From Candidatus Muiribacteriota bacterium (lineage in GTDB: Bacteria > Muiribacteriota > DAOVTB01): DNA of 49,379 bases. Where the stretch lies: positions 1 through 49,379 of the forward strand of contig DAOVTB010000010.1 in the NCBI GenBank assembly GCA_030633305.1, given 5' to 3'. Under the pieces are notes generated by a model. It searched no databases. It was given only the letters and a program-made list of their open reading frames with translations, and was not told the origin of the DNA. The first letter of the stretch is position 1, and each line of letters begins with the position of its first letter. A program made the position numbers and the translations under genes. Shown here piece after piece: positions 43,533-45,006 of the stretch.

Positions 43533-43817
43533 ATGAGCAGGTCACTTAAAAAAGGCGCATTCCTTCAGGAAAAGTTAAAAAAGAAAATTATGTTTCTTAA
43601 CGAAACAAACAAAAAAAGAGTTATTAAAACCTGGTCTAGACGGTCAACGATTTTCCCAGAAATGGTCGGGCATACTATTGCAGTCCATAATGGAAGAAAA
43701 CATGTACCTGTTTTTATTACTGAAAATATGGTAGGACACAAACTTGGAGAATTTGCTCCAACTAGGATGTTTAGAGGACATGGTTCTCATACCGAAAGAA
43801 CTATTTCGATTAAGTAA
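43533..43817 (+). CDS. rpsS: 30S ribosomal protein S19
   Basis: S19 pairs with S13 in the 30S head. The 94 residues include [35 protein letters not shown] and [13 protein letters not shown], typical of S19. Spacing to rplV is 14 bases. It is of interest because the next gene carries an S13-like domain, and S13 is the natural partner of S19. Confidence 0.98.
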
Positions 43818-43831
43818 AGGAGGAAATGGTA

Positions 43832-44356
43832 ATGGCACAATTATTAGGACAGGATTTATTACAGGGAGAAAACATTTTAGAAGCTTTACTTGAACTTCCT
43901 GGAATGACTCAAGTAAAAGGTAAAAGAGCTTTAAGACTCGCAAAAGTCAGTAAACATAAAATGGTTGATGATCTTTCCGATGAAGAAGTTAGTAAAATCG
44001 ATGCAAATATCGATTCTCCAATGGGGAAAGTGAGTCATGTGCGGATTTCGCATAGGAAAGCAAACGCAGTTATGAGATTAATCAGAGGCAAACAGGTTGA
44101 CAATGCTTTTGATATTCTGAAATTTACTCAAAAGAAAGCTGCAAGGATTATTGAGAAAGTATTGAAAAATGCTGTAAGTAATGCAAGTAACAATTTTGAT
44201 CTTGATCCAGAAAGCCTCTATGTACATAAAGGTGCAGTAGAAGAAGGCTTTACGCTGAAAAGAATTCAGCCAGGACCAATGGGGCGTGCTTTTCGAATCA
44301 GGAAAAGAACAAGCCATATTAAAATTGTTGTGAAAGAAAGAAAGGAGGCTAACTAA
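43832..44356 (+). CDS. rplV: 50S ribosomal protein L22 with an S13-like N-terminal domain
   Basis: The start is ATG 43832, 8 bases after AAAGGAGG; an ATG at 43826 is too close to it. The 174 residues are about 60 longer than typical L22 (about 110). Residues about 66-174 are normal L22 (VSHVRISHRKANAVMRLIRG, FTLKRIQPGPMGRAFRIRKR, SHIKIVV), which lines the exit tunnel. Residues 1-60 are foreign to L22 and look like the N-terminal half of ribosomal protein S13: MAQLLGQDL at the start, and ALLELPGMTQVKGKRALRL then VDDLSDEEVSKID, aligning with S13 over 40 residues without gaps. There is no frameshift, and the linker DSPMGK is short. TAATG couples it to rpsC. Confidence 0.93.
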   Translation: MAQLLGQDLLQGENILEALLELPGMTQVKGKRALRLAKVSKHKMVDDLSDEEVSKIDANIDSPMGKVSHVRISHRKANAVMRLIRGKQVDNAFDILKFTQKKAARIIEKVLKNAVSNASNNFDLDPESLYVHKGAVEEGFTLKRIQPGPMGRAFRIRKRTSHIKIVVKERKEAN

Positions 44357-45006
44357 TGGGACAGAAGACAAATCCTATCGGAATAAGAGTTGGAATCATT
44401 AGAGGATGGGAATCTAACTGGATCAGTGACAAAAAAGATTATGCAAAGTTCCTCCACGAAGATATCTATATACGTAAGTATATTTTTGAAAAAGGTGCTC
44501 GTGCAGATGTTGGAAAAGTCTATATAGAAAGACCTTCTCCACAAGTTATTAATATAACTGTTCATACTGCAAAACCTGGAATACTCATCGGAAAAAAAGG
44601 TGCAACAATTCAGGAAATAAAAGAGCATATAGAAAAGAAAACTAAACGTACAATCAGAATCGATACTCGCGAGATTAAAATAATGGAAACCAATGCATTC
44701 CTGGTTGCTAAACATATTTGTTTACAGCTTCAGAAACGTTCGTCTTTTAGACGTGCTATGAAGATGTCTGTAACAAGGGCAATCCAGCGGGGTGCTGTTG
44801 GAGCAAAAGTTTTAATAAGTGGTAGAATCGGTGGTGCTGAAATTGCTAGAAGCGAACACCATTCTGATGGAAAAGTTCCTCTTCATACATTAAGAGCTAA
44901 TATTGATTACGGTTTTGCTGAAGCAAAAACTACTTATGGACTCATTGGTGTAAAAGTTTGGATCAACAAGGGTGAAGTGGCTTACGGTCAGAAAGTAGAA
45001 GTATAG
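44356..45006 (+). CDS. rpsC: 30S ribosomal protein S3
   Basis: S3 forms part of the mRNA entry channel and has helicase-like activity with S4. The 216 residues show MGQKTNPIGIRVGIIRGWES, the KH motif PGILIGKKGATIQEIKEHI and the C-terminal RIGGAEIARSEHH. The ATG overlaps the rplV stop by one base. Confidence 0.98.
   Translation: MGQKTNPIGIRVGIIRGWESNWISDKKDYAKFLHEDIYIRKYIFEKGARADVGKVYIERPSPQVINITVHTAKPGILIGKKGATIQEIKEHIEKKTKRTIRIDTREIKIMETNAFLVAKHICLQLQKRSSFRRAMKMSVTRAIQRGAVGAKVLISGRIGGAEIARSEHHSDGKVPLHTLRANIDYGFAEAKTTYGLIGVKVWINKGEVAYGQKVEV

Follow-up and report, generated by a model that had tools for sequence, protein, structure and literature searches.

Organisation of the rplV locus

The window, by which we mean the whole stretch of 49,379 nucleotides analysed here (contig DAOVTB010000010.1 of assembly GCA_030633305.1, Candidatus Muiribacteriota bacterium), carries the gene for ribosomal protein L22 (rplV) in the normal operon place of uL22 between rpsS and rpsC. 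The features of this locus are as follows:

43533..43817, + strand: rpsS (S19), normal, directly upstream of rplV (stop codon 43815-43817)
43818..43823, + strand: Shine-Dalgarno sequence AGGAGG, 8 nt spacing to the ATG at 43832 (read directly)
43832..44356, + strand: rplV, 174-aa protein comprising an S13-like N-terminal domain and L22
43832..44017, + strand: S13-like domain (helix-two-turns-helix type), residues 1-62, ungapped to S13 residues 1-62
44018..44029, + strand: junction PMGK, whose proline and distance from the L22 core recur in family f6 (see below)
44030..44335, + strand: conserved L22 domain, residues 67-168 (PF00237, E 2.8e-37; TIGR01044)
44356..45006, + strand: rpsC (S3), normal, directly downstream of rplV

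The rplV frame is open from the ATG at 43832 to the TAA at 44354-44356, and its Shine-Dalgarno sequence comes directly after the rpsS stop codon, which confirms the placement of the gene directly after rpsS in the first-pass annotation; this adjacency is the standard operon order. A true start near codon 60, which that annotation had named as the finding that would speak against an extension, was rejected on the basis of the Shine-Dalgarno sequence at 43818, the lack of a good site around codon 60 and the retention of the extension in f6: the start is codon 1. An alternative ATG at 43826 lies only 2 nt from AGGAGG.

The window protein contains a complete L22 domain above the curated cut-offs of both Pfam and NCBIfam: residues 67-168 match PF00237 with 127.5 bits (cut-off 28; E 2.8e-37), and TIGR01044 is matched with 125.2 bits (cut-off 73.65). 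The core is thus that of a normal bacterial L22. That the first 60 or so residues stand outside normal L22 was correctly recognised at the outset, as the Pfam L22 match covers residues 67-168 only; whereas an ordinary bacterial L22 begins at about residue 1 of the core, 66 residues lie ahead of it in the window protein.

Similarity of the N-terminal extension to S13

Besides L22, the only Pfam match of the window protein is to S13: PF00416 is found over residues 4-75 (E 4.3e-5; whole protein against 24,736 models) and, when the extension alone is used, over residues 4-63 with no gap (E 1.4e-4). The scores of 22.7-24.4 bits lie under the Pfam gathering score of 31 bits, as is to be expected for half a domain. 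Three NCBIfam S13 models match in the same register (uS13_bact, E 2.5e-4; the archaeal-type PRK04053, 7e-4; uS13_arch, 1.1e-3), with scores that are also under the curated cut-offs, and a phmmer search against PDB chains returned S13 chains as the top 15 matches (best E 0.026). Comparison with 29 S13s of the phylum using hhalign gave a score of 38.2, with 18.8 as the best of 300 shuffles. A search of the bare 68 residues against 382 whole genomes afforded 63 best non-self matches, down to E 0.0204, all of which lie at a frame start, align from query residue 1-3 and belong to frames of ~119-168 aa: the 28 matches outside the phylum that were re-checked are without exception genuine rpsM genes, coinciding with PF00416 at 92-121 bits, and the matches within the phylum in G027, G038, G034 and G003 also fall on S13 places. 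The hhalign score above all shuffles and a genome search that returns rpsM indicate that the resemblance goes beyond chance. The likeness to the N-terminal half of S13, proposed at the outset from the sequence alone, is therefore upheld by Pfam, NCBIfam, hhalign and the genome search, as is the gapless nature of the alignment, which pairs residues 1-62 with S13 1-62.

Identity of the window domain to the S13s of the phylum amounts to 23-34%, and the S13 residues G6, G24, V45 and L48 are kept. In contrast, K13-R14, invariant in the 29 S13s of the phylum, is lost in all L22-borne copies together with the second glycine of the GIG motif: in place of K13-R14 and GIG the window domain reads GEN.. 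and PGMT, and f6 reads DVD and KGLD. The basic second half of S13 (rpsM; PF00416, TIGR03631) is absent from the extension, the match being limited to about S13 1-62 and continuing into L22 instead, and the rplV product has neither the second half nor the score above a curated cut-off that mark a full-length S13. Judged by its sequence, the window extension is a domain of S13 descent and not an S13.

A full-length S13, for which a check had been proposed, is encoded elsewhere in the same genome (G000:C18:3780-4100, 114.5 bits), and S13 is present above cut-off in 37 of the 40 genomes of the phylum. Since a full rpsM is still found in its own genome, the L22 extension can be ruled out as a replacement of S13. 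With K13-R14, the second GIG glycine and the basic second half gone and a true S13 in existence, the domain cannot do the work of S13.

Distribution within the phylum and beyond

The phylum sample of 40 genomes comprises eight families (f1-f8), with the window genome as the sole member of f1. A related, more divergent S13-like domain is present on 21 L22s of f6 from nine genera: these proteins start MLRLVGVNIPDDVDLFNGLRLIKGL... or similar, have 80-105 residues ahead of the core and are likewise encoded with a Shine-Dalgarno sequence preceding the domain start, whilst L22 was not found in three further f6 genomes. The L22 N-termini of f2, f3, f4, f5, f7 and f8 are short or unrelated and exhibit no S13-like domain (for this family survey the L22 of G007 was read in its C-terminal part only). 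No such domain was detectable on the 14 other L22s of the phylum or on ~330 L22s outside it, nor on 20 long-frame L22s from elsewhere. When the f6 L22 profile was searched against the 382 genomes, the N-terminal part was matched in f6 only, among the matches listed; a few of these begin earlier, but only via stop-codon read-through. Weak matches were listed in part, so that this search and that of the long-frame L22s do not extend to every genome. The first-pass annotation had held that absence from close relatives, combined with the lack of a conserved fold, would count against the extension: absence applies to six other families of the phylum but not to f6, whose members display a conserved fold as far as modelling can indicate.

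In case of f6 alone, the match to S13 is borderline, as its score of 25.9 is barely above the best of 200 column shuffles (25.8). Among single f6 N-terminal domains, uS13_bact was the best match in three of four (E 0.015-0.11), and eight of the nine PDB matches of the f6 profile are S13, aligned N-terminus to N-terminus; Pfam searches with the f6 domains gave no S13, with weak chance matches only. A joint f1 and f6 profile matched S13 with a probability of 94.9 and an E of 4.7e-8 (hhalign; columns 1-78 on S13 1-62). In this alignment f6 bears inserts of 4 and 12 residues relative to S13 (12 or more in the case of the longer one), as opposed to the ungapped window domain. An AlphaFold2 model of an f6 L22 shows the domain at pLDDT ~83-90, with helices at residues 15-20, 28-41 and 66-75 and two strands (45-48, 54-57) within the insert region; the helices fall where S13 has its three, and their order appears to be alike. 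In a Foldseek search with this model the 50 matches listed were all L22, with S13 not among them. The domain of the window protein itself was modelled poorly by AlphaFold2, the alignment having misplaced it.

The f6 domain is under selection as strict as that on the L22 core. Across f6 pairs its dN is ~0.03-0.25, well below dS, as in the core, with dN/dS of 0.042/0.40 versus 0.069/0.43 in one example pair, the domain being about as low as the core; these figures are from f6 pairs, f1 being a single genome.

A further feature of f6 concerns L29 (rpmC), which is prolonged at its C-terminus by a conserved stretch of ~143 aa that is rich in lysine, probably helical and without a clear counterpart in Pfam or PDB. 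The corresponding loci are:

L095:7056-7688, + strand: f6 L29 (others in L093-L101)
L097:9642-10271, - strand: f6 L29
L099:9949-10584, - strand: f6 L29
45473-45676 of the window: L29, ordinary, 67 aa

Number of fusion events

The f1 and f6 sequences can be aligned gaplessly from the last helix onwards and into the L22 core, and both have [DEN]-x-P where the two domains join (KMVDDLSDEEVSKIDANIDSPMGKVSHVRISHRK / PKVGDLTWKEKSRLIDLVDIPRASITNVRMSPRK), whilst S13 is without a proline at the matching position: the junction spacing and proline common to f1 and f6 favour one fusion. Against one origin counts the identity between f1 and f6, which at 16-27% over 62 columns is no higher than that of either to S13 (f1 23-34%, f6 mean 26%). 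Comparison of the f1 and f6 profiles with hhalign gave no direct match, and in the 62-column tree f1 falls within the S13s, weakly supported and at the end of a very long branch. The origin is not settled by the ribosomal-protein tree, with monophyly of f1 and f6 not rejected (AU p = 0.09). On balance, we consider a single origin of the f1 and f6 fusions to be moderately favoured.

Possible role of the domain on the 50S subunit

As read from its sequence, L22 residues 1-62 represent a repurposed N-terminal half of S13 fused in frame. Made as one chain with L22, the domain would be present in one copy per 50S subunit, and it would not be expected to bind the 30S-head site of S13, which is filled by the true S13. 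In the solved ribosome of Cutibacterium acnes, an N-terminal extension of uL22 anchors H2, H24, H46 and the H19 tip of 23S rRNA, and the C-terminal tail points to solvent (PMC10085706); uL4, uL22, uL23, uL24 and uL29 form the tunnel and vestibule (PMC13338714). This extension site, together with uL22 being part of the tunnel and vestibule, makes the outer 50S face near the exit the likeliest location. The domain most likely packs there beside the tunnel exit, near H2, H24, H46 and the H19 tip, where it would provide additional bracing of rRNA domains and adjacent proteins, both in assembly and in the mature subunit. An S13-derived domain bracing the outer 50S near the tunnel exit is the best explanation overall, and one to which we would give about an even chance of being correct. 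Against the brace stands the net acidic character of the window domain (-3), given which plain rRNA binding is not favoured; with f6 domains at +3 to +10 and S13 1-62 at -1 to +4, charge is not decisive for or against this role.

A special 23S rRNA insertion as the partner of the domain was also considered and rejected: comparison of G021 (f6) with G001 (f2), G003 (f4) and E. coli revealed no insertion confined to f6. The 23S rRNA of the window's own genome was not found. An insertion of ~70 nt after E. coli position 274 is common to the three 23S rRNAs from the phylum in this comparison (L110, L111, L112).

The main rival of the brace is a role chiefly in docking: the S13 descendant would serve as a platform at the tunnel exit to which targeting factors or chaperones bind, or through which the membrane is contacted. 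The weak or negative charge of the window copy and the loss of the conserved basic pair of S13 would agree with this, as would the gain of a conserved ~143-aa domain by L29, a second exit protein, in f6, as if the exit had been remodelled; however, the window genome combines the L22 domain with a plain 67-aa L29, and we regard a docking role as somewhat unlikely. Still less probable is passive accretion, in which a neutral fusion following partial rpsM duplication was kept by being folded into the subunit and has no separate function. The patchy occurrence of the domain, in f1 and f6 but not in f2, f3, f4, f5, f7 or f8, is compatible with this, and bacterial ribosomal proteins commonly bear long terminal extensions, most of them with no known function (PMC9534751). 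Against such accretion counts the retention of the domain in 21 of 21 f6 L22s found, across nine genera, under selection like that on the core.

Contact with the 30S subunit, S19 or mRNA, either as an inter-subunit bridge or as a regulator tying S13/S19 supply to L22, appears very unlikely. The first-pass annotation had raised subunit contact and noted the position of rplV directly after rpsS, and S13 and S19 are established partners in the 30S head; yet the rpsS-rplV order is that of the standard operon, and K13-R14, the second GIG glycine and the basic second half of S13 are gone from the extension. Furthermore, uL22 N-terminal extensions sit on H2/H24/H46/H19 of 23S rRNA, remote from the 30S head, as in the solved C. 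acnes ribosome (PMC10085706). Finally, that the domain is a lineage-specific helical extension resembling S13 by chance is highly improbable: although Pfam and NCBIfam scores are under the curated cut-offs and the match of f6 by itself is borderline, rpsM is what an unbiased genome search returns from dozens of unrelated genomes, ungapped and N-terminus to N-terminus, the shuffle control is passed, and bacterial and archaeal S13 models agree.

Comparison with known ribosomal protein extensions

Ribosomal proteins often gain tails. Extended ribosomal proteins are known and common, L22 and L29 of Mycoplasma pneumoniae included, with functions largely unknown (PMC9534751); these and the C. acnes uL22 (PMC10085706) are alike to the proteins described here in having extra terminal sequence, some of it structured, on the same proteins. 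The window extension differs in that it descends from a second universal ribosomal protein, one that belongs to the opposite subunit; such descent is not reported in the available text of either source. PRK12279, the 'L22/unknown domain fusion protein' (NCBIfam NF008917), also combines L22 with an additional domain, but only its L22 part matches the window protein (model 10-109 of 311) and its extra domain follows L22. A literature search, conducted outside most subscription papers, did not bring up any case in which one universal ribosomal protein bears a domain of another, which is weak evidence of absence.

It thus seems that part of one universal ribosomal protein was put to new use on another, belonging to the other subunit. 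Should the domain be sited like known uL22 extensions, an rRNA-binding fold can be transferred within the ribosome to a different site on rRNA or protein, which bears on how ribosomal proteins diversified. More tentatively, the S13 domain may have moved once, in the ancestor of the phylum, onto L22 and to a new site at the exit, where the L29 of f6 was also enlarged, giving a remodelled exit platform made partly of recycled ribosomal parts; we consider this wider scenario possible rather than probable. The findings also call for caution in marker-gene pipelines, as S13 and L22 profiles can both match one protein in this phylum.

Other L22 termini were encountered in the course of the analysis. 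The N-terminal tail of an L22 from another phylum (L122 in G089; MRRDITMAVSRI) matches the S13 profile with 9 bits, probably by chance and perhaps via its LRRD...IKRL stretch. The f5 L22s (L025, L028, L029, L076) have a charged N-terminal extension of another kind, ~45 residues long (MLVSEAKIREKFYNQNRQNG...), which by eye does not resemble S13. The window L22 is without a long C-terminal tail; one that is rich in lysine and alanine is present in f2, f4 and f6 (L008, L013 and the f6 loci).
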